Source of the DNA: Woeseiaceae bacterium
GTDB taxonomy: Bacteria; Pseudomonadota; Gammaproteobacteria; Steroidobacterales; Woeseiaceae
DNA: 33,780 nt
Direction of reading: 5' to 3'
Assembly: GCA_021773155.1 (NCBI GenBank)
Contig: JAJFKQ010000111.1
Coordinates: 1 to 33,780 of the forward strand
Part shown: positions 1-14,820 of the stretch, piece after piece
Position numbering within the stretch: the first letter of the stretch is position 1
Layout of the letters: each line of letters starts with the position of its first letter
Position numbers and translations under genes: made by a program
Notes under the pieces: model-generated
Told to the model about the DNA's origin: nothing
What the model saw: the letters and a program-made list of their open reading frames with translations, nothing else
Database searches by the model: none

Positions 1-1041
1 CCCCTCCTGTTGCTAATATTTATTACGGGAGGCTATTTCTTTGGCAATGTATATGCACTTCCAATGGGATTTCTTGCCGGCCATATCGCTTCGACGTTCA
101 TTTTGGCTTACCGGCTTCCGTACCGGTATCGGCCCCGTATCGATCTTCAGAACGCCGATGTACGCGAGATCCTGACTAACTCGGCGATGCTCACGGGCAG
201 CGGTCTGATCGCGCGTCTGCGCGGTCCGATCATGCAATACTATGGTTCACAACTCGGCGAAGGCGCAATCGCGGCCATGTCGCTGGCCGTGAAGCTTTGC
301 AGGCCAATATTTCAAACCTCCCTTATGGGAGTCCATATGATTGTGTTCTCTCGCTCCGCCAGAGAGGTCGCAAAGGGTAACGTCGACAAACTCGCAGACA
401 TTTATGACTACGCGTTATCAGCGGTGCTTATCGGGACGATGCCGATCGCGGTCTGGATGACGTTTAATGGAGAACCATTGATCAACGTGTTGTTCCTGCG
501 CGGCGAATTCACCGGTTCTATGGCCGCGCTGACCGTTCTGGCGTTGCTTGGGGCAACTGCGACCATCGTGTTCCAGGGCCTTGTGAAACTGCTGTCGGAA
601 TCTTTCTATGCCATGCACCGGATCACAATTCCGATAGTGGCAATGCCACTCGGCACGGTCGTATTCTTTGTTGCCACAAAATATTTGAGCGAATCCTATG
701 GGATATTTGGACTAACACTTGCAAGCTCGTCGGTGTCCTTCATGATGACGATCGTAATGACGTTCATTCTGGCGTTCATCCTGCCGAGATTTTCCGCATT
801 ACTGATCGTCAGACGTATCGTTTTATATTTCGTTCTGGCGGCTATTGCAGGGTTCGCGGGTGTTGAGATCTCCGCGTTTGCCGGGCTCACCGGTCTGCCC
901 CGGCTTGTTGTTTCATTTGCAGTGCTGTTCATCCCGTATGCCGGGGTATTGTGGATTATTCGAGAAACAATCTTCGTCCGAATTATGCGATCTGTCCGCA
1001 CCGCCACCGCTCCCGGCAATCGCAAACCCAAGGCGTCTTGA
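1..1041 (+). CDS. MurJ/MviN-like lipid-linked oligosaccharide flippase, 5' truncated by window edge
   Basis: This is a polytopic membrane protein of the MOP exporter superfamily, MurJ/Wzx type, expected to flip undecaprenyl-linked sugar units across the inner membrane. The open frame continues to base 1 without a stop, and the TTG at position 10 lies inside a hydrophobic helix, so the true start is to the left. About 346 residues are visible against roughly 500 for complete family members. The segment around LFLRGEFT followed by a hydrophobic stretch and a conserved FYAMHR is typical of MurJ. The C-terminus is basic and cytoplasmic. It ends 21 bases before the convergent GNAT gene. The setting favours an exopolysaccharide flippase over the housekeeping lipid II flippase, but this is inference. 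Confidence 0.82.
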   Translation, partial: PLLLLIFITGGYFFGNVYALPMGFLAGHIASTFILAYRLPYRYRPRIDLQNADVREILTNSAMLTGSGLIARLRGPIMQYYGSQLGEGAIAAMSLAVKLCRPIFQTSLMGVHMIVFSRSAREVAKGNVDKLADIYDYALSAVLIGTMPIAVWMTFNGEPLINVLFLRGEFTGSMAALTVLALLGATATIVFQGLVKLLSESFYAMHRITIPIVAMPLGTVVFFVATKYLSESYGIFGLTLASSSVSFMMTIVMTFILAFILPRFSALLIVRRIVLYFVLAAIAGFAGVEISAFAGLTGLPRLVVSFAVLFIPYAGVLWIIRETIFVRIMRSVRTATAPGNRKPKAS

Positions 1042-1062: not shown

Positions 1063-2106
1063 TTATGACGGGTACGGACGGATCGCCTCATCCCCGCGCC
1101 ACATTGTCAGGTGCAATGGTCCGGATAGACTGGAGCTACCCTTACCCCACCAGAAAGCCGGCGTTCGCGACCGTTCGACAAAACCAATTCGCTTCAATGC
1201 GGCGGAAAACGTCGGGCACAATGCTCTGCAAGCCACCTTCGCAGCACCGCCTTTGGCGAGGATCTTGGACGTCTCGGTAACGAGCCACGCATAATGTTCG
1301 GCCGAATTTTGAGACGCTTGTACATGTAACAAATTTGCCTCACAGGCGCCATTTCGCTCGAAGAGGCGGCTAATCGTAAGACCAATCGGTTTATCGTCGG
1401 CATAGCCTACAAGCCAAAGGAACTTACCCATGTCGCGCGGCGCCTTTTCCAACCAGGCGCGTTCCCATTGGCTGCACATGCATGCGAGCGCGTAATCAGC
1501 ACTGGGTTCCACCAGCGGCAGCGGGTCGCCTGCCCGGTACTCGGAAATCACGCCGTCCTCTATCGCTGCGGCTGAACGACGATGCCACACAGGTATCGAC
1601 AGTGTGTGGGCCAGACGGGTTCGCAGTTTTCCGCGTGGGACGTGAAGCCGACCAAGCAACGAGTCTACAAGCGCGCCGCTTGTCAGTGGTAGTGAGTAAT
1701 TAGTCGTGTCCGGCAATTTTTGCCAGCCCATTAGCGGCAGAATATCTTGCGTCATCCAGGTACCCGCCATTGCAAACATTGGCTCTGGTTCCTTCATAAA
1801 CATGCGCATGAGTCTCAATCCCAGCCCTACGGGCCGGTACTCAGGAAGACATAACCACTCGCAGGGCTCCCGAACGCGGATGAATTCGTCGCCGTATCGA
1901 TATAAATGACTCGACGAGTCAAGCATCGCAATGCAACGATCTCCGTCAAACGCCAGCAGCGTATCCGCCTGCTCGCGAGCCGAATAACGCCAGCGGAAGA
2001 ACTGCTCCGAGAGTTCCTGAGGCCAATTATCCGTACTTTGGGATTGGCGCAATAGCCGAACTGCAGGCAGATGGTCGGCGCACAAGCGCTCGATCTTTAT
2101 CGTCAT
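1063..2106 (-). CDS. GNAT-family N-acyltransferase, last gene of the aminoacyl-ACP operon
   Basis: A protein of about 347 residues with GNAT features. An acyl-donor binding motif of the R/Q-x-x-G-x-G type (YRPVGLG) sits near residues 90-96, followed by a helix rich in Leu, Met and Arg. A second GNAT-like region lies toward the C-terminus (LLHVQASQNSAEHYAW, then RIGFVERSR). An FFRWRYS segment resembles the LNWRYS segment of the divergent GNAT-like gene at 4729, so the two are probably related. I placed the start at the ATG at 2106 because MTIKIERL is a natural GNAT beginning. A GTG at 2151 would add 15 residues, and neither start has a strong ribosome site. It follows an acyl carrier protein gene by about 115 bases, so the donor may be acyl-ACP rather than acetyl-CoA. 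The acceptor is unknown. Confidence 0.75.
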   Translation of the reverse strand: MTIKIERLCADHLPAVRLLRQSQSTDNWPQELSEQFFRWRYSAREQADTLLAFDGDRCIAMLDSSSHLYRYGDEFIRVREPCEWLCLPEYRPVGLGLRLMRMFMKEPEPMFAMAGTWMTQDILPLMGWQKLPDTTNYSLPLTSGALVDSLLGRLHVPRGKLRTRLAHTLSIPVWHRRSAAAIEDGVISEYRAGDPLPLVEPSADYALACMCSQWERAWLEKAPRDMGKFLWLVGYADDKPIGLTISRLFERNGACEANLLHVQASQNSAEHYAWLVTETSKILAKGGAAKVACRALCPTFSAALKRIGFVERSRTPAFWWGKGSSSLSGPLHLTMWRGDEAIRPYPS

Positions 2107-2220
2107 ATTCGACTGAGGTGCAAGAACACCCACTCGATCATATGAATGCACGTCAACATAAAATCCTGCATCCTATAGTCGCGTGTTACGCGGGTTGGGC
2201 TTCGGGTAGCTGATGGCACA

Positions 2221-2487
2221 TCACATCTGCACGGTCTTGGCGCGTACGATTTTGCCTATATCGGTAATAGTACCCAAGAACTCCGCGCTCATTTCATGTG
2301 GCTCAATTTCAACACCGAATTTCTCGTCGATGAATAGTACCAGCTTCATGATCCCTATCGAATCTACGATAGCGCCGGCAATCAGTGGTGTTGAATCGTC
2401 CAGATTCTCGGCTGGCTCCCCCGGCAAGAACTCTTTTAGGACGAATTCTTTTACCGCATCTTCTATCTGTCGATGGCTATCTGTCAT
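2221..2487 (-). CDS. Acyl/peptidyl carrier protein (ACP 1)
   Basis: A small acidic four-helix carrier protein of 88 residues. The phosphopantetheine attachment serine is Ser43 within IVDSIGIMKLV, a canonical D-S-x-G-x motif. Helix 3 (EFLGTITDIGKIV) also fits. It would carry an acyl or aminoacyl thioester between enzymes in the cytoplasm. I chose the ATG at 2487, which has GGAG about 12 bases upstream. The frame stays open to a TTG at 2532 that overlaps the stop of the diiron oxygenase gene, and an ATG at 2505 is also possible. The gene lies directly after that oxygenase and before a GNAT gene. Two different carrier proteins in one operon suggest separate partners or two steps. Confidence 0.9.
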   Translation of the reverse strand: MTDSHRQIEDAVKEFVLKEFLPGEPAENLDDSTPLIAGAIVDSIGIMKLVLFIDEKFGVEIEPHEMSAEFLGTITDIGKIVRAKTVQM

Positions 2488-2528
2488 CGTTGTACCCGTC
2501 TCCATGCGCGCGCCTGTTGCAGGCTGTC

Positions 2529-3392
2529 TCAAAATCCAATATCTGCGTAGTATTTCGCAAGGCCTTCAGACCAGGGCCTCATGAGGTCTCTTCGTTCATT
2601 ACTGGCGATCACTTCAGTCCGAAGCCGCATGCCGTTCTCCAGCCCCAGAGCGCGATAGACGGCTGGGTTACAGGCTGACTGGTAGATGTATTCCTGGTAG
2701 GTAGCCATCAGGTCTTTCGCCGCTCGCAGCTCCGAACTGAGATTCTTCTTTTTGGCACGGGAGAGGTTTTCTTCAATCATCGCCTTGTCCCAGGCTTTGT
2801 GACGGGCCTCATCGATCAGATGGTATTTATGAACCTGATGTGCGCTGGTATCCATATCGGAATCTTTAACAGCCTTCTGGTTGATGAACCCAAGATAGCT
2901 TTCCAAAATGTATGTTCGACCGTAGAAGAGTATGTCTTCCACTTCCGGTGAAAATTTTGGCTGCTCTACTGCGAAAGCACGATCCGGAAACACCGAGCCA
3001 TGGTAGCGCAGGCAGAATTCTGCCAGCATGTAGGTATGCGAGTTTTCCTCATGGATGAAACGCTGAATATACTTGCTGGACACAGGGTCCTCACCAACAC
3101 GTTTGTCCCTGTAAAGCCTCGGTTCCAAGGCAGCAACCAGAGCCTGTTCTCCGTGAATGTTCACGGAAAAGAAATTTATCGCCTCGAGAAGTGATAGCCG
3201 CCATTTTTGTTCGTCGTCCAGATCACCGTAAATCGGTAAATTGCGCAGCGACAAAAAATCTTCGGGAAACTGCCACCGATCCCCGTTTAGCGTCTCCTGG
3301 TATTCAACTCGATTAAACGGATCGTACTTCTTCTTATCTGATGCCGTAATGAGTTTTCGAGCGACTACCTGAAAAGTATTCTTTTGTGACAT
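2529..3392 (-). CDS. AurF-like diiron oxygenase
   Basis: A 287-residue all-helical ferritin-like protein with a complete candidate diiron ligand set: Glu82 (HGEQ), Glu116 and His119 (EENSH), Glu164 (ILES), His191, Glu195 and His198 (HLIDEARH). The E-x2-H and H-x3-E-x2-H spacings match the seven-ligand pattern known for the arylamine N-oxygenase AurF. Family members oxidise amines to hydroxylamine or nitro groups, and related diiron enzymes hydroxylate carrier-bound aminoacyl groups. It is flanked by two carrier protein genes, 63 bases after one and overlapping or abutting the other, so a carrier-bound amino acid is a likely substrate. That substrate is inference. It is too short and lacks the motif order for an acyl-ACP desaturase. 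The ATG at 3392 is a good start. Confidence 0.82.
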   Translation of the reverse strand: MSQKNTFQVVARKLITASDKKKYDPFNRVEYQETLNGDRWQFPEDFLSLRNLPIYGDLDDEQKWRLSLLEAINFFSVNIHGEQALVAALEPRLYRDKRVGEDPVSSKYIQRFIHEENSHTYMLAEFCLRYHGSVFPDRAFAVEQPKFSPEVEDILFYGRTYILESYLGFINQKAVKDSDMDTSAHQVHKYHLIDEARHKAWDKAMIEENLSRAKKKNLSSELRAAKDLMATYQEYIYQSACNPAVYRALGLENGMRLRTEVIASNERRDLMRPWSEGLAKYYADIGF

Positions 3393-3455
3393 TGTTAACT
3401 ACGGCCTCCATACTATCGGCAAGATCCGACATACTTGCTGTTCTCGAACACCCGG

Positions 3456-3716
3456 CTACTCGAGAAACGTCTGGCAGATCCTGTCGATGCTCTCTAACAT
3501 ATCCGGCTCAAGTTCCGTCGCATCGATTTCGATCTCACCGAGCTCTTCAATGAGTAGAAATAACTCCAAAACATCAACTGACGTAATCAACCCTTCCTCA
3601 ATAATCTTAGTCTGATCGGTAAACGTTGCCTCGTCAACAGACGGCGCCTTGCTGCGAATCCATTCACGCAGCACCTGTCTTGCATCCGAGTTGTTGGCTG
3701 GCATATTACTATTCAT
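3456..3716 (-). CDS. Acyl/peptidyl carrier protein (ACP 2), partner of the ligase
   Basis: An acidic carrier protein of 86 residues. The modification site is Ser46 in EGLITSVDVLELFLLIEEL. The usual Asp before the serine is Thr here, while the serine and the following hydrophobic-acidic helix 2 are kept. The ATG at 3716 overlaps the stop codon of the amino acid:carrier protein ligase in an ATGA junction, with a GGTGG element upstream, so the two are translationally coupled. Known ligases of this class charge a carrier protein encoded beside them, which makes this the most likely acceptor of the activated amino acid. The unusual T-S motif might affect which phosphopantetheinyl transferase or ligase recognises it, but it does not remove the attachment residue. 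Confidence 0.88.
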   Translation of the reverse strand: MNSNMPANNSDARQVLREWIRSKAPSVDEATFTDQTKIIEEGLITSVDVLELFLLIEELGEIEIDATELEPDMLESIDRICQTFLE

Positions 3717-4606
3717 CCTGCCACCAGATCTTCAAATCCCGGCCAGCTATCAGTATCCGTGCCAAAATGACCCAGGAACGCGAACAACCAGCGCTCAATG
3801 CCAAAGGCAACGCAGCCTGAAAATACCTCGCTCCCCTGGCACGAAATATCGAAGGTTTCTCCAAAAGAGCTCTGGTGAAAATTGATCGATCCAATGGCGA
3901 GGTGTCCGTCATAAACCATCTCGTGTTTGAGCGGAGCAACTTTTTGCATAATATATTTTCTATTTGTGGGTGCATTGAAAAACGGATCAGTGGCGCGTTC
4001 CAGTACAACCGGTAACGACAGGCGTTCGAAGAAGCCAACTACGATCTGTTTGAACTGCTCCAGATATTCCTGTACATCGCCTTGCGCACCCACACAGACC
4101 ACTTCACGCATCGTGAACGCCGTCTGCCGTTCCAAGGGAGTCAAGCTTTCCTCTTTGCGAAAGCATGTTGACCGAAGCGTAACAAAGCACGTACCCGGCA
4201 GATCCTGTCCACTCATGGACATGTAGACAGGGAAGCAAGCCGCCGGCGCCAGGCATTGGTGAACAGGTGAGGTTTCCGTGAGTCGCAATGCATCGTCCGA
4301 AGAAATCGGATCGTCTGCAAAAGCGTTGAGATTGTCATCATCGGGCAACAACGAAACCGGGAACATGACCTGATGCGGAAAAGATTTGAAATACTCGAGC
4401 TTGTTAAGCTGCGCCGCAGAAACCAAAGGCGAGAACTGCCGTTCTTCCGCGCCAAATTGCTGTGCCCAGTGAGCAAACAAGCGATCAATATCCTGTGCCA
4501 GGCCTAATACTGCACCGCCCAAGACCGCTTGCTTATCTTGGGTTACTTGCAGTCCGTCGACTTCATTTAAGTTAAAAATTGTATCTCCATCACTATCGCT
4601 TGCCAT
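3713..4606 (-). CDS. Amino acid:[acyl-carrier-protein] ligase, class II aaRS (atypical SerRS) homologue
   Basis: A 297-residue protein matching the catalytic core of atypical seryl-tRNA synthetases but lacking a tRNA-binding domain. Motif 2 appears as CFRKEES with Arg150 and Glu152, then FTMREVVCVG. Motif 3 appears as GCVAFGIERWLFAFL. Cys124, Glu168 and Cys265 sit where a zinc-binding Cys/Glu/Cys set is reported for the Bradyrhizobium enzyme family that loads Gly or Ala onto carrier proteins. It would use ATP to make an aminoacyl-adenylate and transfer it to a phosphopantetheine arm. The coupled carrier gene (ATGA overlap) supports this strongly. The amino acid cannot be read from the sequence. 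The start is uncertain: ATG at 4606 is used here, and a TTG at 4627 adds 7 residues. No strong ribosome site was seen. Confidence 0.87.
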   Translation of the reverse strand: MASDSDGDTIFNLNEVDGLQVTQDKQAVLGGAVLGLAQDIDRLFAHWAQQFGAEERQFSPLVSAAQLNKLEYFKSFPHQVMFPVSLLPDDDNLNAFADDPISSDDALRLTETSPVHQCLAPAACFPVYMSMSGQDLPGTCFVTLRSTCFRKEESLTPLERQTAFTMREVVCVGAQGDVQEYLEQFKQIVVGFFERLSLPVVLERATDPFFNAPTNRKYIMQKVAPLKHEMVYDGHLAIGSINFHQSSFGETFDISCQGSEVFSGCVAFGIERWLFAFLGHFGTDTDSWPGFEDLVAG

Positions 4607-4658
4607 TACCAGCGCGAATTCTAGCAATTATTCCGGCCGTTGTGGTAGACGGACTTCC

Positions 4659-4728: not shown

Positions 4729-5763
4729 TTGAGAATTATCGAATACAGTCCGGAGTGGTACGACGCAGTCGCGCGTGCGGTAGAGCCCATAAAACAGGAG
4801 TCAGCTTTGACTCATCGTCCATTTGTCGACTACTACTATACGTCGCAGGACTGGTGCAAGCTCCTGCTGGCTCTCGACATTAACGACAGGGTCGTGGGTA
4901 CGCTCGGCGTGGACCGCATGAGATTTGAATCCGAGTCAGGAGAGATGATTCTCGGCTTCAGCAGTAACTACAATTCATTCCTTCCGGGTGTCGGATCATT
5001 TCTGTTTTTGCGGCGGCTGAACGAATGTCCCCTGGGACTGGTATTTTGGACTACGGAAGATACCCAAAAAGTGATCAGGTCCCTTGGATGGACTTACTTC
5101 CCTGACATCAGGCGACACTACCTGAATTACTCGTACCCCGCGTTCCCGAAGGAACCCGTGTGGCGAAAGGCGGCCAAGGGTATTTTGAGGCGCTTACCCG
5201 GCAAAAAGATTGGCGACTACGCGTCGCGGCTTCAAGGCGCGGTTGAAGCAGGTGTTTCGATTCAATCTGAGCGTTCATTTACAAATGACCTGTTACCGCA
5301 AGAGTCGCCGTTCGCGTTTCGATTTGCCCCGGATATCGCTTACCTGAATTGGAGATACAGTACCGAGCTTTCGTTTGTCCGGTATCGACTATTTCGTATT
5401 TTGGTGGATCAAACAACCGTCGGATACGTGGTTATCAACGACATGCCGGACCGTCTGGTCGTGGCCCAGTGTGACGGAGTGGATCCGATGACCCTGGCAT
5501 ATGGGGTGATGTCATGTATCGTTGAAGTAGGCAAGCACGATCAAAATCCCAGAACAGTCATGCTCACATCATCAAATCAGAAGATGCAGGAGATTTACCG
5601 CAAGTTCGGATTTCGCGCCAGTACATCAGACGAGTGTTTCGCTGTGGGAGGATATAGGCAGGATGTCGCGTTGAATCAGGATACGTCCAACTGGCTTATT
5701 AATTTTGATTGGGGCAACAATGAACTGCAGGGCCCGTTCCTGGATCAGACAGCGTCTGAATAA
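4729..5763 (+). CDS. GNAT-like acyltransferase, divergent from the aminoacyl-ACP operon
   Basis: A 344-residue protein that looks like two GNAT-like halves. The first half begins MRIIEYSPEWYDAV, a typical GNAT N-terminus, and contains the segment GVGSFLFLRRL. The second half begins near APDIAYLNWRYS and ends with EIYRKFGFRAS, the usual C-terminal GNAT strand and helix. The LNWRYS element resembles FFRWRYS in the GNAT at 1063-2106. The start is a TTG preceded by GGGG about 11 bases upstream, and no better in-frame ATG precedes it. Its 3' end overlaps the convergent sulfotransferase by 19 bases. It may transfer an acyl or aminoacyl group to a sugar or lipid, but the donor and acceptor are unknown. 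FemAB-like ligases are an alternative fold assignment. Confidence 0.68.
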   Translation: MRIIEYSPEWYDAVARAVEPIKQESALTHRPFVDYYYTSQDWCKLLLALDINDRVVGTLGVDRMRFESESGEMILGFSSNYNSFLPGVGSFLFLRRLNECPLGLVFWTTEDTQKVIRSLGWTYFPDIRRHYLNYSYPAFPKEPVWRKAAKGILRRLPGKKIGDYASRLQGAVEAGVSIQSERSFTNDLLPQESPFAFRFAPDIAYLNWRYSTELSFVRYRLFRILVDQTTVGYVVINDMPDRLVVAQCDGVDPMTLAYGVMSCIVEVGKHDQNPRTVMLTSSNQKMQEIYRKFGFRASTSDECFAVGGYRQDVALNQDTSNWLINFDWGNNELQGPFLDQTASE

Positions 5764-6647
5764 CCATATTGCGCCAGGGAATCGGCAATGCATGATGTCA
5801 GTTCCGATACTTGATCTGACGACAAATCCGTCAAGAATGCTTGTTTTCTGCTGGAGTCTATTCGGCTTCTGCGGATACGATTCGCTAAGTCGTCTTGGAA
5901 TTCAATTTCGGAAAACTCACACAAATCGCGTATCTGACCGATCGGGTCGATTATGAAATCTTCATAACGAATTGTGCAAACACTGTCCCCCCCAATCCGA
6001 TTCGCGTCTAGTTCAACACTCTTGACGAGAATCTCCCACGCAATGCCTGCCAAAACCAGGAAAGAATGGTTACTTGACTCCCACAGGGACTGATGCTGCT
6101 CATTCAACGAACCCAAATACCAGTTGTCAGGTCCAAGATATCCCGTCCACCACTCCATCTGGAGGAATGAATTGGCGACAGCACGACCATCGCGAACGAT
6201 GTGAACAAATTTTGCTTCCGGGAATATTTCCTTAAAAAAATCGACCCGGGACCAACCTGTGTATTTGTGGACGAAAATCTGTTTTCCCTGCGCGTGACAT
6301 CTGTCGAAAAAGAATTTTCGAAATGATTGTCTGAGCTCGGGGGTAACATCTGAAGCTCGAAGGTTTCTGCAACTATTCGAATATATCGGTGAAACCTTTT
6401 CGCTTATTAGCCGGTACGCTTCTGAGGGAGCAAATCTCAAGCCCCCTTTTTTCGTATGCTTTCCGAGTGGAGACCGAAATAATCTGCTGTTCAGCGGTCC
6501 CTTCGAATTGAAAAGCGGAAAATTATCGTCGACATTCGAAACAAATCCAACGCCGCGATGCTGCGATATCAACTCGTGCACGAACGACGAACCGCTTCGG
6601 CCAGAGCCAACTATGAATACGATCTTTATATTAGAGTCAGCGGACAT
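5745..6647 (-). CDS. PAPS-dependent sulfotransferase
   Basis: A 300-residue cytosolic sulfotransferase. The 5'-phosphosulfate binding loop is GSGRSGSS at residues 14-21 and is followed by a helix. The 3'-phosphate binding motif is HIVRDGRAVANS with Arg152 and Ser160. Length and motif order match Sulfotransfer_1/3 families. It would transfer sulfate from PAPS to a hydroxyl or amine of a sugar or lipid-linked intermediate. It is the last gene of the export operon, 40 bases after the BY-kinase gene, which points to a sulfated exported polysaccharide. The ATG at 6647 has no clear ribosome site. No PAPS synthesis genes are in the window. Sulfation of a small molecule made by the nearby ACP operon cannot be excluded. 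Confidence 0.87.
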   Translation of the reverse strand: MSADSNIKIVFIVGSGRSGSSFVHELISQHRGVGFVSNVDDNFPLFNSKGPLNSRLFRSPLGKHTKKGGLRFAPSEAYRLISEKVSPIYSNSCRNLRASDVTPELRQSFRKFFFDRCHAQGKQIFVHKYTGWSRVDFFKEIFPEAKFVHIVRDGRAVANSFLQMEWWTGYLGPDNWYLGSLNEQHQSLWESSNHSFLVLAGIAWEILVKSVELDANRIGGDSVCTIRYEDFIIDPIGQIRDLCEFSEIEFQDDLANRIRRSRIDSSRKQAFLTDLSSDQVSELTSCIADSLAQYGYSDAV

Positions 6648-6687
6648 TACAGCGGACGCGACGACCTTTCGTCTGGTTGGTCACAGG

Positions 6688-7527
6688 CTAGTAATAGTAA
6701 CCGGTGACGGCATCTTCTGACCGATTGAGAACCACACCCAGCAGTGGTAACTCTTGAAGGATGTCGATGCCCTTTTGCAATACGTCGCGTGACGTTCTGC
6801 CCTCACTTACAACGATCAGAAACGCGTCTGCTAACGGAGTAAAAGCCAATACATCATCTGTTGCCAGATATGGCGGCAAATCGCAAATAATAATCCTCCC
6901 AGGATCGGATCCGCGGAGCTCACTGATCAGGGTAGCTACCTTGGGCGATGAAATTGTTTCAGATGAATTTTCGTAAACCTCAGTATTGGGTAATATGGCA
7001 ATTCGCTCCGTCCCTTCAGGCCTGAAGAGCACCTCATCGAGTTCAGCCGATCCATCAAGATAATCGGATAATCCCTTGGAGGGGGCGACATCGAATTGTC
7101 GACAAATTGTTGGTCTTCGCAAATCAAGCTCAAGCAAAACTACTGACAGAGTGACTTCCCTGGCAAGACTGAGTGCCAAATTCACGGCGGTCAGTGATTT
7201 GCCATCGCCTTGCGATGCACTCGTCACGCCAATTACATGCCAGTTGTTCTGGCGTATGCGCCGCAACGCCCTGGTTCGAAGCATTTTGTACGCAGAGCGC
7301 ACGCTCTCGTCCTGTGAGTCGTTGAGGATAACTCTACTCTCAGACCCTTCGACAGAGAGCGTCGGTTCGACACGGAGTGTTTCGATCCATTTTTCACCCT
7401 CGTTGTCCTGAGGCAGCGGTTCTTGCGTCAGCGTGTCGACACCTGAACGCCGTTTTGCCTTTTTACCGCCTGCAGACTTACGCCTGTTCTCTTTTGCCCA
7501 GTTGAGTGTTTTTACAATCTTGCTCAT
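6688..7527 (-). CDS. CpsD/CapB-family bacterial tyrosine kinase (BY-kinase)
   Basis: A 279-residue cytoplasmic P-loop kinase that pairs with the membrane co-polymerase to control chain length and export. The Walker A loop is SASQGDGKS (residues 103-111), Walker A' is VVLLELDLRRP (129-139), and Walker B is IIICDLPP (212-219). The A' motif has Glu where an Asp is more usual. The C-terminus ends in GYYY, so the autophosphorylation cluster is only three tyrosines. The first 30 residues are strongly basic. The ATG at 7527 has AAGGA about 6 bases upstream and lies 17 bases after the co-polymerase stop. The separate kinase and co-polymerase arrangement is less common in proteobacterial Wzc systems but usual in GumC/exosortase-type loci. 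Confidence 0.9.
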   Translation of the reverse strand: MSKIVKTLNWAKENRRKSAGGKKAKRRSGVDTLTQEPLPQDNEGEKWIETLRVEPTLSVEGSESRVILNDSQDESVRSAYKMLRTRALRRIRQNNWHVIGVTSASQGDGKSLTAVNLALSLAREVTLSVVLLELDLRRPTICRQFDVAPSKGLSDYLDGSAELDEVLFRPEGTERIAILPNTEVYENSSETISSPKVATLISELRGSDPGRIIICDLPPYLATDDVLAFTPLADAFLIVVSEGRTSRDVLQKGIDILQELPLLGVVLNRSEDAVTGYYY

Positions 7528-7544
7528 TCGTTTTCCTTATCCTG

Positions 7545-9194
7545 CTACGAGCTCAGGTACCAAACGCCGGCCGCAGCACTCGAGATCATCACTCCAGCCA
7601 ACGATGCATGAGCGATAACCCTCAGTAAGCGTGAACGCCGATCTGATCGCGTTTCCACCACGGGAATGTTCGCCAATGGCGGAACCCCCAGCAGTGTACG
7701 AACATCCCTCGAATTCCTAACACTTCCGTCTGATACTTCCGCCAGCGCAAGAACTGCGATGGACAGCGCACCGGCCAGCACAATGCCCAGGGCCAGAATG
7801 CCAATCCTGTTTGGGCTCGAAGGTTCGCGCGGAACACGTGGTGGATCGATGGGCGTAAATTTCTCCCCCAATTGCTCAGTCTCGAGCTGGCTGGACATTT
7901 TGGCCGTCGCCAGATTCGCTTGAATCTGATCATGACGTTCAACCGCATCTTCATAGCGACGCATCAACATTCTGTATAGCCGTTCAATTTCCGGTACGCC
8001 CTTAAGTTCCTTTTCCAACGAGGCGATTTTCTTGACAAGGGCATCCTGGGTCTGGACGAGCCCGCTTAAAGAAGCGCTTCTTTCCCGAACCTCCGAATCG
8101 ATCAGACGCACAGCGGGGCTCGTGACCACGACCGCTGTGGATTGACCATCCTGATTCTGAGCCTCAAGTGCAGCCAAGGTTCTCTCCAAACGTCGCACGT
8201 CCGGATGATCTGCCGAGTACCTCTCAAGGGCCGACGCTAGTTGCTGCCGAACCTGGGTGATTACAATGGCCGAGTCGCCGCCATCTGTAACTCCGTCGAC
8301 CTGCTGAAGTATTTCAATCTCTCTACGTATGCTCAACACGTCCGGATGATTTGGCGCATACTTCGCACTTACCCGTGCGAATTCCTCTTGCAACTCTGCC
8401 ATTCTGTCAACCGCGCCACCAGCCTCGCTCATCGACAATCTTCGCTCATCTTGCAGATATCGGATGCGCTCCTCCTGCGTTCGGATCTGGCTCTTGACTT
8501 CGATCAGCTGCCTCTCCTCTCTTTCGAGAGACTGCAAATTGAACGTCGCATTCTCCGGCAACATCCCCTGATACTGGCTCTTGAAATTGGCGATCTCTCC
8601 GTCAATGCGATCTATCTCACCGAGATAGGCAGCTGATTGAGACTCCAGGAAAGAAACCGTTTCTAGCGTTTGCTCTTCCCTTGACCGCCTGTTTTCTTCC
8701 AAAAACAGTTCATTTACCTCAGTCGCCACGTCGCGCGCTAATACCGGGGATTCATGCCGAACAGCTACCGTAAACGCAATTGTCGCCAGACCGGGTCGGC
8801 CGGTACTTTGATTAAATACATCTGCACTAATGGATTCGATTACGATTGCGTCTTTCAACTTCGCGACCTTCGAAACTATCGATTCGTCGTCCTGTCCGTA
8901 GTCGTACAGCTTGTGACGCTGAATCAAGCCAGCGAGATTGTCGGTTGACATCACACGTTGCGATATGACTTGAATTCGCTCGTCCGCATAACTCGTTATG
9001 GTGGATTGCACCAGATCATCCGGGATGTTCTGTTGTTCTATCAGAATAGTCCCAGTCGACTCGTAAACTGACGGCAATCCGAATGCAAGCAACACCGTCA
9101 ATGACAGCAACGCGATAAACGTGTTTGCGAGGACGGTAAACCGCCGTCGCACCATTCCAAGAACTTCAGTGAAGCTGAGTGTGTCAGTATCCAA
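7545..9194 (-). CDS. Wzz/GumC-type polysaccharide chain-length determinant (co-polymerase)
   Basis: A 549-residue inner-membrane protein. A Wzz domain starts at residue 4, with a first membrane segment at about residues 20-42. A long periplasmic coiled-coil region follows, containing two GNVR-like stretches, each with a D/N-HPDV core (YAPNHPDV and YSADHPDV). The proline-rich motif PIDPPRVPREPSSPNR leads into a second membrane helix near residue 470, and a third hydrophobic helix ends the protein. There is no kinase domain, which is supplied by the next gene. It should form the periplasmic oligomer linking polymerase to exporter. The start is a TTG. The frame has a stop three codons upstream, and GGAGG lies about 12 bases before it. 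Confidence 0.9.
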   Translation of the reverse strand: MDTDTLSFTEVLGMVRRRFTVLANTFIALLSLTVLLAFGLPSVYESTGTILIEQQNIPDDLVQSTITSYADERIQVISQRVMSTDNLAGLIQRHKLYDYGQDDESIVSKVAKLKDAIVIESISADVFNQSTGRPGLATIAFTVAVRHESPVLARDVATEVNELFLEENRRSREEQTLETVSFLESQSAAYLGEIDRIDGEIANFKSQYQGMLPENATFNLQSLEREERQLIEVKSQIRTQEERIRYLQDERRLSMSEAGGAVDRMAELQEEFARVSAKYAPNHPDVLSIRREIEILQQVDGVTDGGDSAIVITQVRQQLASALERYSADHPDVRRLERTLAALEAQNQDGQSTAVVVTSPAVRLIDSEVRERSASLSGLVQTQDALVKKIASLEKELKGVPEIERLYRMLMRRYEDAVERHDQIQANLATAKMSSQLETEQLGEKFTPIDPPRVPREPSSPNRIGILALGIVLAGALSIAVLALAEVSDGSVRNSRDVRTLLGVPPLANIPVVETRSDRRSRLLRVIAHASLAGVMISSAAAGVWYLSS

Positions 9195-9294
9195 TTCTGT
9201 TCAATGCCTCCACCCAATCAAGCAACAATTCAGTCACATCCAATAACCAAATCTGTCAAAAATTAACGCCTTAAATCCAGGCTGGTTGCCGCCG

Positions 9295-9888
9295 TTATGG
9301 AACAACAACAACATCTCCACTTTCCAGAATAATGTTTTGCTCGAGGCGGCGACCTCTGATCACATCATCATACCGAAACTCGAGCGCAGTCTGCCCAGTA
9401 CTGGTCCGTCGTAGAATTCGAATGTTCTTCAGGTCCGCGAAAGGTGTTGTGCCACCGGCCATACTCAGGGCCTGCATCACATCAACGCGAGGGTTTACGA
9501 CGAATTCGCCGGGTTTGGCCACCTGACCGATGACGAAGACCTTATTTCCGTTAATTTCCATAACGGAAACAGTTACCAGCAAATCCGGAATGTAGCGTGA
9601 CAACCGCTCCGATAGTTCAACCCGCAGTTCTTCAACTGTCTTATTTCGGGAATTGATCTCGCCACTTAAAGGAAACGAAATTGCTCCATCGGGTCTCACC
9701 AGGACCTCTTTTTGTAATTCCGGTTCCTTCCATACAGATATAAATAACAAATCACCTGGCTGAATCTCATACGCTTCACCCGCCGCCGCGCGTTCCTGAG
9801 CTTGGGCGATACTGATTCCACACAGCGCGGCAATCAAAACAGAGAGAAGTTTTAGGTGCCTGATCGTCAATGTATGCCTCACTATCAT
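9295..9888 (-). CDS. Wza-like polysaccharide export protein (Poly_export plus SLBB), short form
   Basis: A 197-residue exported protein. The N-terminal signal peptide ends near AQAQE. A cysteine occurs in the hydrophobic stretch (AALCG) but does not fit a lipobox, so it is probably not a lipoprotein. The Poly_export domain begins at YEIQPGDLLFISVW and continues through VRPDGAISFPLSGEI. A SLBB domain follows with KVFVIGQVAKPGEF and the closing VILESGDVVVVP-type strand. The length fits the short exporters of GumB/exosortase-type loci rather than full E. coli Wza (about 380). It is the first gene of the reverse operon that continues with the co-polymerase 100 bases later, and would form the outer-membrane or periplasmic export conduit. 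Confidence 0.9.
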   Translation of the reverse strand: MIVRHTLTIRHLKLLSVLIAALCGISIAQAQERAAAGEAYEIQPGDLLFISVWKEPELQKEVLVRPDGAISFPLSGEINSRNKTVEELRVELSERLSRYIPDLLVTVSVMEINGNKVFVIGQVAKPGEFVVNPRVDVMQALSMAGGTTPFADLKNIRILRRTSTGQTALEFRYDDVIRGRRLEQNIILESGDVVVVP

Positions 9889-10276: not shown

Positions 10277-11221
10277 ATGCTACGCCTGCTAAAGATTGTC
10301 GTTAGTGCCAGTTTAATCACGGTACTCGTTTGGAATGTTGAATGGAAAGAGATTTATTCTCACGTCCATGAATTCAATCCAGCACTTGCGTCGGCGGCGG
10401 CGCTTATACTAGCTCTGCAATATCCTCTCAGTGCCTGGAAATGGCAGCAATCGTTGCGGCTTCACGGCGTCGAATACCCTTTGGGTTTCTTGCTTCGCAT
10501 TCTTTGCATCGCGTTCTTTTTCAATAATTTCCTGCCAACGGCGATTGGAGGTGATGCGTACCGCGCGTATCGAACATTCGAACATGCAGATCGACCCGCA
10601 TACCCGATTTCCGCCATCTTTGTCGAAAGAGCTCTTGGCCTTCTGGTGCTCGTTATTCTTGGCTACATATCGGTGATTACATTGGTCGCAACCGGTACTC
10701 TGCCTTACAAGCAAGTAGTCATCCTGACTTCAATACCGGTCGGCGTGTTCTTTTTACTTCTCTTGATTGCGTGGCAAGCTGGTTTTCTGCTGGTAATCAC
10801 GAACAGGTTACGCAAAATAAAAAAATTGGAGCCACTGATGGAAAGTTTTCGAGTGATGCGGGCGAATCGCAAGCGCCTTTGGGGGCTTGTCGGTACATCA
10901 CTACTTTTTCAGGTAGCCGCCATCGGCTCGATCACTCTTCTTTTCTCCGCGCTGGCCTTGCCCGGAAAAGTCTTTGAAAGCGGATTCACCACCGCGGCTG
11001 CCGGCGTGGCCGGTGTGATACCGTTGTCCATCAATGGAATAGGAATCGTCGAAGGGTCGTTCGCCGTCGCTGCGACCCTCGCAAACCTGCCCTATGCCCA
11101 AGCTGTTGTTGTGGCTCTGTTTTTACGTGTCTTCGGCCTTGTATCCAGTATATTATTTGGGGTCTTGTATCTTTTTGAGCGTCGCACCAATAGCGCTATG
11201 AGTCGTGGGGATACTGCATAA
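10277..11221 (+). CDS. LPG-synthase-TM/AglD-like multi-pass membrane protein
   Basis: A 314-residue protein with about eight hydrophobic helices. It contains the family signatures FFFNNFLPTAIGGDAYRAY (residues 82-100) and the later GVIPLSINGIGIVEGSF segment, both typical of the lysylphosphatidylglycerol synthase transmembrane family (PF03706). In MprF this region flips a charged lipid, and in other polysaccharide loci its homologues are thought to move or handle lipid-linked sugars. Only the membrane domain is present, with no aminoacyl transferase domain. The ATG at 10277 has only a distant GAAGG upstream. The stop codon abuts the ATG of the next gene, so the two are probably co-translated. 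Since amino acid lipid chemistry occurs in this family, a link to the aminoacyl-ACP operon is conceivable but unproven. Confidence 0.8.
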   Translation: MLRLLKIVVSASLITVLVWNVEWKEIYSHVHEFNPALASAAALILALQYPLSAWKWQQSLRLHGVEYPLGFLLRILCIAFFFNNFLPTAIGGDAYRAYRTFEHADRPAYPISAIFVERALGLLVLVILGYISVITLVATGTLPYKQVVILTSIPVGVFFLLLLIAWQAGFLLVITNRLRKIKKLEPLMESFRVMRANRKRLWGLVGTSLLFQVAAIGSITLLFSALALPGKVFESGFTTAAAGVAGVIPLSINGIGIVEGSFAVAATLANLPYAQAVVVALFLRVFGLVSSILFGVLYLFERRTNSAMSRGDTA

Positions 11222-11836
11222 ATGAGTCATCTTCCCCATAAAACGCAGATTTTACTGCGGGCTGCCTTCAAAAACCCTTCAGAGCTACTTCGCATTGCGA
11301 AAATTGCCTGGACGTCGTTCCGTTACCGATGGATACGGCGTTGCACAGGTCGGAATACGGTAGTTGGTGAAGGAACCGTAATGGTCAATAGTGCCAACAT
11401 AAAAATAGGATCAAATTGCCTGCTTCAGGATCGAGTTTATTTGCGCGCTGGGATTGACGGTCATATTGTGATCAACGATGGCGCAGCATTGAATAGCTTT
11501 GTTCAAATGTACGGCCACGGTGGAATCGACATCGGCAAAGACACCCAGGTTGGCCCGAATTCTGTAATCACAACTACTGGGCACGATTATCTGTCCAGCG
11601 ACCTCGATAGTGATTTCGCTGCAATCACCATTGGAGAAAGAGTCTGGATCGGGGCAAATTGCACCATCATTGGAGGTGTCCATATCGGAGACCACGCAGT
11701 GATTGGAGCTGGCGCCGTAGTCACGAATGATATCCCCTCTCGCTGTGTCGCCGTTGGGGTACCCGCGCGGGTGATACGCTCATTCGATGCATCTGAAGCT
11801 TCCGATACCGAGAACAATGCTAACAAAATGGACTAA
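11222..11836 (+). CDS. Left-handed beta-helix (hexapeptide) acyltransferase
   Basis: A 204-residue trimeric O- or N-acetyltransferase of the WcaF/NodL/LacA type. Hexapeptide repeats run from about residue 60 (IKIGSNCLLQDRVYLRAG) to residue 185 and include VWIGANCTIIGGVHIGDHAVIGAGAVV. The catalytic histidine is probably that in TTTGHDY, and the GVPARVIR end is standard. It would acetylate or acylate a sugar using acyl-CoA. The ATG follows the previous stop with no gap (TAAATG) and the gene ends 10 bases before the AsnB-like gene. Confidence 0.9.
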   Translation: MSHLPHKTQILLRAAFKNPSELLRIAKIAWTSFRYRWIRRCTGRNTVVGEGTVMVNSANIKIGSNCLLQDRVYLRAGIDGHIVINDGAALNSFVQMYGHGGIDIGKDTQVGPNSVITTTGHDYLSSDLDSDFAAITIGERVWIGANCTIIGGVHIGDHAVIGAGAVVTNDIPSRCVAVGVPARVIRSFDASEASDTENNANKMD

Positions 11837-11846
11837 TCGATAGACG

Positions 11847-13778
11847 ATGTGTGGAATTGCCGGTTTAGTTGGAGAATATTCGGATAGTGTCGCGTCTGTA
11901 CGGCGAATGATCGACGCTTTGAGTCACCGCGGTCCAGACGACCACGGGATCTACGAAGGGTCCGGCGCCACGCTGGGACACCGAAGATTGTCCATCATCG
12001 ACCTCGGCGGCGGACACCAGCCAATTGTTGATCAGTCGCAGGGACTGAGCATTGTCTTCAACGGCGAAATATACAATTACCATGCGCTGCGCAAAGAGCT
12101 ATCGGACGAAGGGATTGAGCTAAAAACTGATTCTGACACCGAGGTCATCCTGAGGCTCTACCAAAGTCGTGGAAAGCGCCTGTTGCAGTCACTTCGCGGC
12201 ATGTTCGCATTCGCTATCTGGGACGAAAAAAAGCAGCAGCTGTTTGCCGCCAGAGACCACCTCGGTCAAAAACCGTTCTACTACTACGCAGACGAGCGCA
12301 AGTTCGCATTTTCCTCCGAAATAAAAGGACTCCTGGCGTTCGACCCTTCTCTTCGGGAGCTGGATCATCAGGCACTTGATCAGTACTTCTCGCTAAGGGT
12401 CGTTGCACCACCGTATAGCATGTTCAGAAGAGTCAGAAAGTTGCCACCCGCCCACTTTCTGACATTTTCCGCAAAGGGTGGTCTTAAGGTCGAGCCTTAT
12501 TGGTCACTTGAATTCGAGCCAAAGGATGACCGCTCTGAAGACGATATTCTGGATGGACTTGAGGAACGCCTTATTGAGGCAGTGCGCCTGCACGTAGTCA
12601 GCGATGTACCAGTGGGCGCCTTCTTAAGTGGCGGGCTTGATTCAACGTTGGTGACTGCGATTTTAATGAAACACGTCGCCGACTCGCCAATACCTACATT
12701 TACGCTTGGTTTGCCGCACCAAAACTATAATGAGGCGCCACTCGCGGCCCTCGTTGCAGCGAAATACGGCACCGAGCACCATGAGCGAACTGAGATCCCC
12801 TCACTCACGCGGCATCTACCGACCTTGATTCACCATTTGGATGAACCCTCCGATCCTCTGTCCATTTGCGTGTACATGGTCTCGGAAATGGCGAGCAAGC
12901 ACGTGAAAGTCGTCCTTGGCGGAGACGGCGGGGATGAATTATTCGGCGGATATGACCGGTATTATGGAAATCACTACGCTGGGTACTACGCCAAAGTTCC
13001 AAGATGGTTCAGATCGAATGTTATCGGTCCCGTTCTGCAACGTATCCCGGAAGGAACCTGGTACAAAAGCAAGGCGCACCAGCTGAAGTGGCTGCACCGA
13101 TTGTCTTTTAGCACCGGTGGCGCACGCTACGCGAAAAGCCTCAGCTATTTCTATTATGAGGGTCAGGCGAAGGAATTCCTTTATGGTCCCGCCTTGAAGC
13201 AGGCATTGGGGCAATTTGATGCAGAGACCCTGATCGCCAACGCCTATGACGCAGCACACGCGAGCGAACCGGTCGACCGCATGTTATCGGCTGACAGCCA
13301 GATCAGACTGCCGGACCATCCTGTAATGATCACCGACCGAATGACCATGGCACATGGCCTGGAGGCCAGAAGCCCGTTCATGGATCACAGCGTTGCGGAG
13401 TACATGGCCCAGGTCCCTGTGCGCTATAAAGTTCGTGGCCGTACACTCCGCTATCTTCAAAAACGCCTTGCCGAACGATATTTGCCTGAGGAACTGCTGC
13501 GTTTTCCAAAACAAGGGTTCTCGTCGGCCCTACCCTATCTCTTGAGGGACGAGTTCAAGCAATTGTTCTCGGTGTTCCTCACGCAACCCGTTCTGGTGAA
13601 AGCCGGTCTGGTTAATGCGGAGGCGGTAAAAATGCTGCTTGAGGAACATTTGGCGCAAAAGGCTGATCACGGCAACCGACTTTGGCTGTTGCTCAACGCC
13701 GAGGTTTGGTATCGGATGCTGATAGAGGGCCAGTCGCGCGATTACATTGCGGACACGCTCGAGAAAGGAAGAAGATAA
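11847..13778 (+). CDS. AsnB-like glutamine-hydrolysing amidotransferase
   Basis: A 643-residue protein with an N-terminal class II glutaminase domain (Cys2 in MCGIAGLVG, RGPDDHG, NGEIYNY) and a C-terminal ATP-pyrophosphatase synthetase domain (FLSGGLDST, then LGGDGGDELFGGYDRYY). Catalytic residues look intact. Such enzymes make asparagine, but in polysaccharide loci homologues such as WbpS-type proteins amidate uronic acid carboxyls of sugars. The UDP-sugar dehydrogenase at 20852 could supply such a uronic acid. The location between an acyltransferase and a glycan-related propeller protein favours sugar amidation. Housekeeping asparagine synthesis remains possible. Confidence 0.92.
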   Translation: MCGIAGLVGEYSDSVASVRRMIDALSHRGPDDHGIYEGSGATLGHRRLSIIDLGGGHQPIVDQSQGLSIVFNGEIYNYHALRKELSDEGIELKTDSDTEVILRLYQSRGKRLLQSLRGMFAFAIWDEKKQQLFAARDHLGQKPFYYYADERKFAFSSEIKGLLAFDPSLRELDHQALDQYFSLRVVAPPYSMFRRVRKLPPAHFLTFSAKGGLKVEPYWSLEFEPKDDRSEDDILDGLEERLIEAVRLHVVSDVPVGAFLSGGLDSTLVTAILMKHVADSPIPTFTLGLPHQNYNEAPLAALVAAKYGTEHHERTEIPSLTRHLPTLIHHLDEPSDPLSICVYMVSEMASKHVKVVLGGDGGDELFGGYDRYYGNHYAGYYAKVPRWFRSNVIGPVLQRIPEGTWYKSKAHQLKWLHRLSFSTGGARYAKSLSYFYYEGQAKEFLYGPALKQALGQFDAETLIANAYDAAHASEPVDRMLSADSQIRLPDHPVMITDRMTMAHGLEARSPFMDHSVAEYMAQVPVRYKVRGRTLRYLQKRLAERYLPEELLRFPKQGFSSALPYLLRDEFKQLFSVFLTQPVLVKAGLVNAEAVKMLLEEHLAQKADHGNRLWLLLNAEVWYRMLIEGQSRDYIADTLEKGRR

Positions 13779-13830: not shown

Positions 13831-14820
13831 TTGAGCTTGGTCCGGTCAGCAAAAAAGTTGCTAAAGCGTCTTCTTTGGAGAATTTCCCCAAAGACTGTTT
13901 ACCGCATGATCCCTGACGGCAAGACCCAATTTTCAATTGGTATCTACGCGGGGGAGTCACCCTTCAATTTGCAGCCGGCACCGATGGCTTCGAATCCGGT
14001 CCTGACGCCGATGGACATTACAGAAGCGCCGAGTGGCACAGTCGCCGACCCGTTCATGTTAAAGGTCGGTGGCGACTGGTACATGTTTTTTGAGCTGACA
14101 AACAGATTTAACAACAAAGGCGAGATTGCACTGGCAACCAGCCAGGATGCTGTCAATTGGAAATTTGAGCAGATTGTTCTCTCGGAACCCTTCCACATGT
14201 CGTACCCGTATGTCTTCGAATGGGACGGTGATTTCTACATGGTTCCGGAAACAGGAAGAGACAAATCTGTACGTCTGTACAAAGCGGGCCAATTTCCCCT
14301 GGGTTGGACATGCGTCGCAACTCTTCTGCAGGGTTCGAGATTTGCTGATAGCTCGTTATTCCGGTTCGGCGGGCTGTGGTGGCTGTTTACTGACGCGGGA
14401 GCCGATGCGAAATCTCCGACGCTGCGATTGTATTTTGCGACCGACCTCTTTGGCCCCTGGACGGAGCATCCGAACAGCCCAATGGCAGACGGTGATCCAC
14501 ACATTTCCAGGCCCGGCGGCCGCGTGGTTATCATCGATGGCACGCCCTATCGCTTTGCACAAAACGTATACCCTGTTTACGGAACAGAACTCCGTGCATT
14601 TGAAATCTATGAGCTTTCGACTACGACGTACGGGGAAAGACAGGTTGGTGACGGGCCAATAATGGGCCCCGGCTCAGACGCATGGAATCGGCACGGAATG
14701 CATCATATCGACCCACATCTTCTGCATGATGGCTCATGGCTAGCCTGTGTTGATGGCTGTATTCGACGAGACTTTGACGAGTCTCTGCTTTCGCCGGTTG
14801 ACCCGTCATCAAATGACTAA
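13831..14820 (+). CDS. GH43-like five-bladed beta-propeller protein (GINT1 N-domain type)
   Basis: A 329-residue protein resembling the N-terminal propeller domain of plant glucosamine inositolphosphorylceramide transferases, a domain also found in bacterial glycan loci. Blade-like repeats include VADPFMLKVGGDWYMFFEL, SYPYVFEWDGDFYMVPETG, FADSSLFRFGGLWWLFTDA and DPHISRPGGRVVIIDG. Acidic residues at blade starts (ADPF, ADSS) recall GH43/GH32 active sites. There is no signal peptide, so it is probably cytoplasmic, which argues against a degradative glycosidase. Its reaction is unknown. The start is a TTG at 13831 because an in-frame stop lies three codons upstream. Its end overlaps the GT39 gene by 8 bases. 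Confidence 0.68.
   Translation: MSLVRSAKKLLKRLLWRISPKTVYRMIPDGKTQFSIGIYAGESPFNLQPAPMASNPVLTPMDITEAPSGTVADPFMLKVGGDWYMFFELTNRFNNKGEIALATSQDAVNWKFEQIVLSEPFHMSYPYVFEWDGDFYMVPETGRDKSVRLYKAGQFPLGWTCVATLLQGSRFADSSLFRFGGLWWLFTDAGADAKSPTLRLYFATDLFGPWTEHPNSPMADGDPHISRPGGRVVIIDGTPYRFAQNVYPVYGTELRAFEIYELSTTTYGERQVGDGPIMGPGSDAWNRHGMHHIDPHLLHDGSWLACVDGCIRRDFDESLLSPVDPSSND

Follow-up and report, generated by a model that had tools for sequence, protein, structure and literature searches.

What is made by an operon that places a carrier-protein ligase resembling aminoacyl-tRNA synthetases (aaRS) next to an AurF-type diiron oxygenase, and what does it serve? The question is raised by a stretch of 33,780 nucleotides from a Woeseiaceae bacterium (contig JAJFKQ010000111.1 of assembly GCA_021773155.1, positions 1 to 33,780), the whole of which is called the window here. 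Five co-directional open reading frames (ORFs) run on its minus strand from 4627 to 1063 in the order ligase, acyl carrier protein a (ACPa), AurF-type diiron oxygenase, ACPb and putative GNAT. The original prediction, made from the sequence alone, had described five same-strand genes in this order with one ATGA overlap, and all are found; it left out the divergent partner gene at 4729–5760. The operon lies in an exopolysaccharide locus, and we read it, with a confidence a little short of even, as a cassette that oxidizes a carrier-bound amino acid in the service of that locus.

3713–4627, minus strand: ligase, class II aaRS-like amino acid:carrier protein ligase (PF00587, NF005479, PDB entry 3mey)
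3456–3716, minus strand: ACPa, the carrier adjoining the ligase, with Ser in an LITS motif (alignment with ACPs of related loci)
2529–3392, minus strand: AurF/CmlI-type ferritin-like diiron oxygenase (PF11583, AlphaFold2 model, ligand residues)
2221–2532, minus strand: ACPb, second carrier protein (PF00550, NF052616)
1063–2151, minus strand: putative GNAT-type transferase (PF13527, below cut-off)
4729–5760, plus strand: 'GNAT2', divergent partner of the window's AurF subtype, fold unproven (homologues in loci L018, L019 and L023)

Operon structure and distribution

The start codon of ACPa (3716) overlaps the stop codon of the ligase as ATGA. Three of the listed ORF starts probably lie too far upstream: TTG 4627 of the ligase (better ATG 4606), TTG 2532 of ACPb (better ATG 2487) and GTG 2151 of the putative GNAT (perhaps ATG 2106). 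Given these internal starts, the other intergenic gaps are about 40–115 nucleotides.

Genome contigs were scanned with a three-row, ligase-linked AurF alignment as the seed. Of the 102 loci found 80 were kept (L numbers), and as L064 repeats the contig of a congener we counted 79 distinct loci. In 56 of the 79, AurF has a ligase within 6 kb, a rate that is overstated because the seed was ligase-linked; the two genes share a strand in 55 of these 56 loci, and an ACP model matches within the gene block of every one. The five-gene operon is real, and this pairing is not a product of chance. The ligase lies downstream of AurF within 700 nucleotides in 52 of the 56 loci, upstream as in the window in three (L018, L019 and L023) and on the opposite strand in L073. 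By record titles the 56 loci span eight phyla (Pseudomonadota, Actinomycetota, Acidobacteriota, Myxococcota, Melainabacteria, Nitrospirota, Omnitrophota and Bdellovibrionota), leaving aside the doubtful Ignavibacteria title of L018. The AurF and ligase of L018 (JAPUKJ010000109.1) are 78% and 74% identical to those of the window; either the title of this metagenome-assembled genome (MAG) or the binning of the contig may be at fault.

A less biased look at the order of Ideonella gave an AurF match in 44 of 399 genomes, and the ligase adjoins AurF in two of the 30 loci returned for that order, one of them in Ideonella itself. Closer to the window, the ligase occurs in two of 60 relatives (its own genome and one congener) and in seven of 369 genomes of the class; among the stretches fetched, AurF stands beside it only in the window and in genome G380.

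Proposed amino-acid activation and loading

The ligase passes PF00587 (tRNA-synt_2b; 38.8 bits, cut-off 29.3). Its best NCBIfam match is NF005479 (amino acid:ACP ligase) at 147 bits, far below the equivalog cut-off of 357, and its best PDB match is entry 3mey (Bll0957), with 147 bits from a three-row and 184 bits from a 27-row alignment. It has the class II core and three zinc-ligand positions with no tRNA-binding domain, and is 304 residues long, against 522–527 for the SerRS matches. Cys131, Glu175 and Cys272 align with Cys151, Glu196 and Cys299 of the 3mey chain, which we take to be zinc ligands, presumably numbered 131, 176 and 279 after a 20-residue tag; all 65 ligases in the alignment retain the three, including six with no AurF linkage. 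A carrier protein directly adjoins the ligase (the ACPa overlap), as in amino acid:[carrier protein] ligase systems. ACPa matches no Pfam family at E = 0.1, yet it aligns with other ACPs with the serine in place. The classes originally given to the ligase and carrier proteins are thus backed by family matches, conserved zinc-site residues and the ACP alignment. To our knowledge, no physiological role has been settled for aaRS-like carrier-protein ligases; since the partner set recurs and one chemical step should show as a mass shift on a small ACP, that role is directly testable.

ACPb just passes PF00550 (21.1 bits, cut-off 20.8) and scores 85.7 bits against NF052616, the ACP of the OlsHI ornithine-lipid pathway described in PMC12493201. 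This second match would suit an aminoacyl lipid, in which ACPb would carry a fatty acyl group and a GNAT would join it to the oxidized amino acid, and two ACPs and two GNAT-like proteins are present. However, the score is well below the cut-off of 130, Pfam finds no OlsH- or OlsI-type enzyme among the genes of the operon, to which this search was confined, and an amine oxidized past hydroxylamine could not undergo N-acylation. We consider such a lipid improbable.

Modelled fold and predicted metal site of the oxygenase

The oxygenase passes PF11583 with 97.8 bits (cut-off 29.6). An AlphaFold2 model calculated from 37 sequences has a mean predicted local distance difference test score (pLDDT) of 93.1. 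Judged on the AurF/CmlI and R2-like rows only, it is closest among the solved structures compared to CmlI (Z = 22.0, r.m.s.d. of 3.1 over 263 aligned residues), with AurF at Z = 20.2 (r.m.s.d. of 4.2 over 279 aligned residues) and R2-type proteins at Z = 16.8 and below; in these structural alignments its identity to AurF and CmlI is ∼15–16%. The predicted set of three His and four carboxylate ligands comprises Glu82, Glu116, His119, Glu164, His191, Glu195 and His198, their roles being assigned by alignment rather than from a metal-bound structure: the last four align with ligands of AurF and CmlI and the N-terminal three with those of an R2-like oxidase. All but Glu82 are invariant in 82 of 82 AurF homologues. 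At position 82, that of the presumed first ligand, 47 of the homologues have Glu and the other 35 have Ile. Those with Ile are all actinobacterial, with HGIRE or alike instead of HGE and a Glu two residues on, and the actinobacterial L073 and L079 retain Glu at this position; the metal site of the Ile-82 homologues may be altered. The passed PF11583 model, the intact diiron residues and a model fold nearest to CmlI and AurF support the AurF-like class proposed at the outset.

Membership of this class leaves a choice of chemistry. According to a passage of PMC12101540, CylC and NocO are AurF-like, NocO chlorinates an ACP-tethered dodecanoyl thioester in a pathway that includes a FAAL, and CylC-type enzymes have a QExxH motif and a predicted open seventh coordination site. 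The window enzyme might by analogy act on carbon, hydroxylating or halogenating an ACP-bound acyl group; an AurF-like protein, an ACP and an adenylating loader are common to both, and ACP partners and AMP-ligase neighbours occur among our loci. The window and all 82 homologues have EExxH (Glu115-Glu116-x-x-His119) rather than QExxH, however, Glu164 is kept in 82 of 82 in contrast to the open site predicted for CylC-type enzymes, and the loaders that were scored are of aminoacyl type whereas NocO takes a fatty acyl substrate. The motif led us to reject a CylC-type halogenase identity, and we give action on carbon a low probability.

Probable substrate of the oxygenase

The strongest sequence evidence for an aminoacyl-ACP substrate comes from a related AurF subclade that has no aaRS-like ligase. 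It holds nine rows with support of 100/100 (L025, L029, L031, L036, L038, L043, L046, L051 and L063); L032, L035, L049, L054 and L060 were added by motif, giving 14 loci. FCGEALP is common to seven aligned members of this adenylation-type subclade. In 12 of the 14 loci an AMP-binding enzyme, labelled from weak scores, lies within 2.5 kb after the AurF–ACP pair. The two loaders scanned with NCBIfam, those of L060 and L038, score 326 and 334 bits against TIGR01733 (amino-acid adenylation domain), above its cut-off of 317.4, and match DltA models next best; that of L031 is AMP-binding by Pfam. Because two unrelated kinds of aminoacyl-ACP loader adjoin related AurF–ACP pairs, that is, because the loader has been exchanged, the substrate of the oxygenase appears to be carrier-bound and to be an aminoacyl-ACP. 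A FAAL-like neighbour (257 bits) is seen in L067, which does not belong to the subclade, and fatty-acyl loading would therefore also be found near some AurFs.

The gene content, the intact metal-site residues, the recurrent pairing and the loader exchange are observed, and the following route is proposed. As its family suggests, the ligase would use ATP to activate a small amino acid, of the type of Gly, Ala or Ser, and load it onto the phosphopantetheine arm of ACPa, and the AurF/CmlI-type enzyme would oxidize the α-amine of the aminoacyl-ACPa to an N-hydroxy, oxime or nitro group. From the context, a GNAT-type enzyme (4729–5760 and/or 1063–2151) would move the oxidized acyl group to an exopolysaccharide sugar or its precursor, with ACPb as a possible intermediate carrier. 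On our best reading the product is an N-oxidized aminoacyl group, probably destined for the exopolysaccharide. If this is so, N-oxidized acyl groups join the known decorations of bacterial exopolysaccharide, and AurF–ACP–ligase, with or without NMO (nitronate monooxygenase), is a genome-mining handle for nitro and oxime chemistry in little-studied phyla. Loading of an ACP followed by oxidation, which the original prediction had also proposed, stands as far as the sequence goes, on the strength of the loader exchange; its glycan context does not hold in general.

Partner genes and possible products

A gene of PF03060, the nitronate monooxygenase (NMO) family, is adjacent in 24 of the 56 ligase loci and in none of the 23 ligase-less loci (Fisher p = 7 × 10⁻⁵, relatedness ignored). 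A ferritin-like gene is present in 16 others, 15 of which also have KASIII; the NMO and ferritin sets are disjoint, and 16 loci have neither gene. In Ideonella (L019) and Accumulibacter (L023) the NMO-like gene directly follows the homologue of 4729–5760. An NMO-like neighbour is in line with nitronate chemistry.

The KASIII loci form a recurrent cluster of KASIII, AurF, ACP, ligase, a thioester-reductase-like short-chain dehydrogenase/reductase (SDR), a phosphopantetheinyl transferase (PPTase), a ferritin-like protein and an ACP, together with an ICMT-like protein and an AMP ligase; its parts vary and not all are present in each locus. It is seen in L012 (7289–19901), L004 (4145–14158), L022, L024, L026, L028, L034, L037, L041, L042, L047, L048, L057 and L079, with record titles from Acidobacteria, Melainabacteria/Obscuribacterales, Omnitrophota, Nitrospirae, Deltaproteobacteria, Bdellovibrionota and Gammaproteobacteria. 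We know of no product of this KASIII-type AurF cluster.

Do these partners point to a small diffusible molecule, such as an N-hydroxy amino acid metallophore or a nitronate or diazeniumdiolate-like signal, with the polysaccharide location incidental? The clusters in which many relatives are found contain KASIII, the thioester-reductase-like SDR, a ferritin-like protein, FAAL or MMPL, or else NMO, a hydrolase and a PPTase. In addition, a passage of PMC11659414 states that HamC, the AurF homologue of fragin/valdiazen biosynthesis, oxidizes valine tethered to a nonribosomal peptide synthetase (NRPS). The HamC/HamD pair is like the window in setting an AurF-type enzyme on a carrier-tethered amino acid; it differs in that, as that passage has it, the ham loader is an NRPS module, the product is a small molecule and the seven ham genes include no aaRS-like ligase. 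In contrast, the window-type relatives in Ideonella and Accumulibacter adjoin polysaccharide genes, and Pfam finds no chain-building, reductive-release or efflux gene within the five-gene operon. We consider a diffusible product unlikely, though more probable than the other alternatives to the exopolysaccharide cassette.

A broader version of the cassette, which we regard as doubtful, is a general, mobile module with two unrelated loaders, an aaRS-like ligase or a DltA-like adenylation enzyme. Either would provide an ACP-bound small amino acid, which an AurF-type N-oxygenase would convert to nitro- or oximino-acyl-ACP. In exopolysaccharide loci this acyl group would be placed on the glycan, so that N-oxidized aminoacyl sugars would occur in bacteria; in other loci it would go to an NMO-like flavoenzyme or into a KASIII line.

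Putative transferase and polysaccharide setting

The genes on both sides of the operon and its divergent partner include the following.

10–1041, plus strand: MurJ-like flippase of the polysaccharide locus (PF03023, 71.7 bits)
5745–9888, minus strand: sulfotransferase, exopolysaccharide tyrosine autokinase, chain-length determinant and export protein (PF13469, TIGR03018, TIGR03007 and TIGR03027)

An LPG_synthase_TM-type protein, an amidotransferase and a nucleotide-sugar dehydrogenase are also encoded in the flanks. For four of the flanking genes XrtA/PEP-CTERM models score best, yet below their cut-offs (TIGR03018, 137 of 231 bits; TIGR03007, 226 of 279; TIGR03027, 135 of 180; TIGR03108, 510 of 817). 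All three window-type loci with readable flanks (the window, L019 and L023) adjoin polysaccharide genes, the contig of L018 ending too early for its context to be judged. L023 has Wzm/Wzt-, RfbA- and sugar-transferase-type genes and a family 4 glycosyltransferase (GT4), and L019 has one Wzx-type flippase and a PF13480 protein.

Homologues of 4729–5760 stand beside the ligase and AurF in L018, L019 and L023, and one was found in a single genome of 300 of Ideonella's order, Ideonella itself, which also has the operon; L020 and L021 have none. By comparison, a search of 348 further genomes of the phylum gave a single homologue of 1063–2151, whose match to PF13527 is likewise marginal (E = 0.017), and 39 relatives gave none. 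This sole distant homologue found sits among polysaccharide-type genes, and no ligase or AurF is among the genes listed around it. Of the two, 4729–5760 is more likely to be the dedicated partner. A PF24793 (GINT1_N) protein is encoded at 13831–14820 of the window and another at 10477–12168 of L152, beside the distant homologue of 1063–2151.

A further protein, of ∼375 residues, lies within ∼5 kb of AurF in ten of the 23 loci that lack a ligase (L025, L029, L031, L032, L035, L038, L049, L051, L054 and L060, several of them by polysaccharide genes), whereas the ligase loci have none; nine of the ten proteins were scanned, and these have no Pfam match. In L060, L051 and L038 it is upstream of AurF, and these loci carry sugar transferases, GT2 or GT4, with an amidotransferase in two. 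Polysaccharide markers (16 proteins) were found near eight of the 14 subclade loci, some of the matches being single and weak. Homology among the ∼345–375-residue proteins (4729–5760, 1063–2151 and the L060 type) is unproven, with hhalign scores of 16–24 and E values of 0.02–0.3; one pair scored 23.55 against a best of 22.7 in 30 column shuffles. PDB sequence and profile searches with these three returned nothing useful, and a single-sequence fold model of 4729–5760 has a pLDDT of 33.

Several observations weigh against the exopolysaccharide cassette. The match of 1063–2151 to PF13527 (E = 0.0028, 18.1 bits) is below the cut-off of 25, 4729–5760 reaches only E = 0.08 against PF00583 and its three homologues have no Pfam GNAT match; the GNAT assignment of the original prediction is marginal, and the GNAT label and the acceptor are both weak. 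No glycosyltransferase was noted in ∼40 kb in Ideonella. Occurrence of homologous operons mainly away from polysaccharide genes had been named in advance as evidence against a glycan role, and our co-occurrence survey gave this result for the wider family: most AurF–ACP–ligase loci have other partners and no nearby polysaccharide gene among the 16 marker proteins, and the glycan setting holds for the window type. Besides passing the NMO cut-off of Pfam, the NMO-like proteins match FabK, below its cut-off, because of which nitronate oxidation by them is only a putative activity. An NMO gene is absent from the window, and the genome it comes from, a 77% complete MAG, has only a weak match with 28% identity. 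AurF-type enzymes elsewhere show other chemistries: besides the halogenation by CylC/NocO, the homologue Dob3 is stated to act on hydrazones (in a passage of PMC13061610) and LitN possibly acts on an amide (in one of PMC10616846). Finally, substrate, product and transfer are all predicted, the small amino acid on ACPa, its N-oxidation and its transfer to a glycan being putative steps.

Relation to described systems

In the open-licence PMC text we recognized no paper in which an aaRS-like ligase is combined with AurF and a transferase. The logic is not wholly new: for the Bll0957-type set, with Agrobacterium Atu2574 as the example, a note added in proof in 2010 (PMC2922099) proposed that an amino acid is ligated to a sugar of the cell surface. 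Its redox enzyme and its transferase are not those of the window. Both systems have an aaRS-like ligase, an adjacent ACP, a redox enzyme and glycan-gene neighbours; the redox enzyme named there is a Rossmann-fold monooxygenase/dehydrogenase and the transferase is of Atu2574 type, whereas the window has AurF and GNAT-like proteins. FemABX/MprF-type enzymes, in another passage of PMC2922099, use a GNAT fold to transfer an activated aminoacyl group, as is putative for the window, but take it from aminoacyl-tRNA rather than from the carrier protein proposed here.

AurF and CmlI, as arylamine N-oxygenases, share PF11583, the three-His/four-carboxylate residues and the fold with the window enzyme, whose partners in the operon suggest a carrier-bound amino acid as the substrate and not an arylamine. 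In D-alanylation by DltA and DltC, a carrier-bound small amino acid decorates a surface polymer. The alternate loaders of L060 and L038 score next best to DltA models; DltA/DltC lack an oxidation step, and the fold of their ligase is unlike that of the window. The amino acid:[carrier protein] ligase family of bll0957 type reportedly goes back to Mocibob in 2010. The neighbours in the bll0957-type loci seen here are presumably acyl-CoA-dehydrogenase-like and DUF1839-like; both are present in L008, L009, L015 and L016, and the window has no match to either.

History of the module

In a 75-row ligase tree the AurF-linked ligases form one clade (63 rows, support 100/98), separate from the Bll0957-like, mostly acyl-CoA-dehydrogenase-linked ligases (100/100, seven rows for four loci). 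The window ligase falls in a starred set of 22 rows, mostly ligases of KASIII clusters; a 42-row tree leaves its exact place open. The AurF of the window belongs to a clade of six rows (100/100) with L018, L019, L023 and L020/L021, the last two being KASIII-cluster loci without an aaRS-like ligase. A single ligase clade of the window, L018, L019 and L023, a group chosen after the first ligase tree had been seen, was rejected (log-likelihood difference of 89, p-AU = 0.00026), and holding the same four loci together in the AurF tree was not (p-AU = 0.33). The module is thus, judging from these trees, a mosaic: because the history of the ligase differs from that of AurF, the ligase, perhaps with its ACP, would have been exchanged. 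We also considered whether the window operon is that of Ideonella, inherited whole, and rejected this because the ligase tree conflicts with the AurF clade.

Eight plasmid records have an AurF match, of which four, chosen for a nearby ligase, were opened. A Tistrella plasmid carries the diiron oxygenase, ACP, ligase and NMO, the Streptomyces NBC_01431 plasmid has the same block as the NMO-bearing loci, an Agrobacterium vitis plasmid has the oxygenase, NMO and ligase, and the Streptomyces NBC_00335 plasmid has the oxygenase–ACP–ligase triple without NMO. Of the records outside these four, that of NBC_01237 has AurF far from the ligase, and two others are from Nostoc and Azospirillum. Viral contigs gave 45 pattern matches, with no relative of the ligase among them. 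L017, from the window's class, encodes two divergent aaRS-like ligase-like proteins (2490–3359 and 11056–12186) ∼8 kb apart in a biosynthetic-looking cluster.

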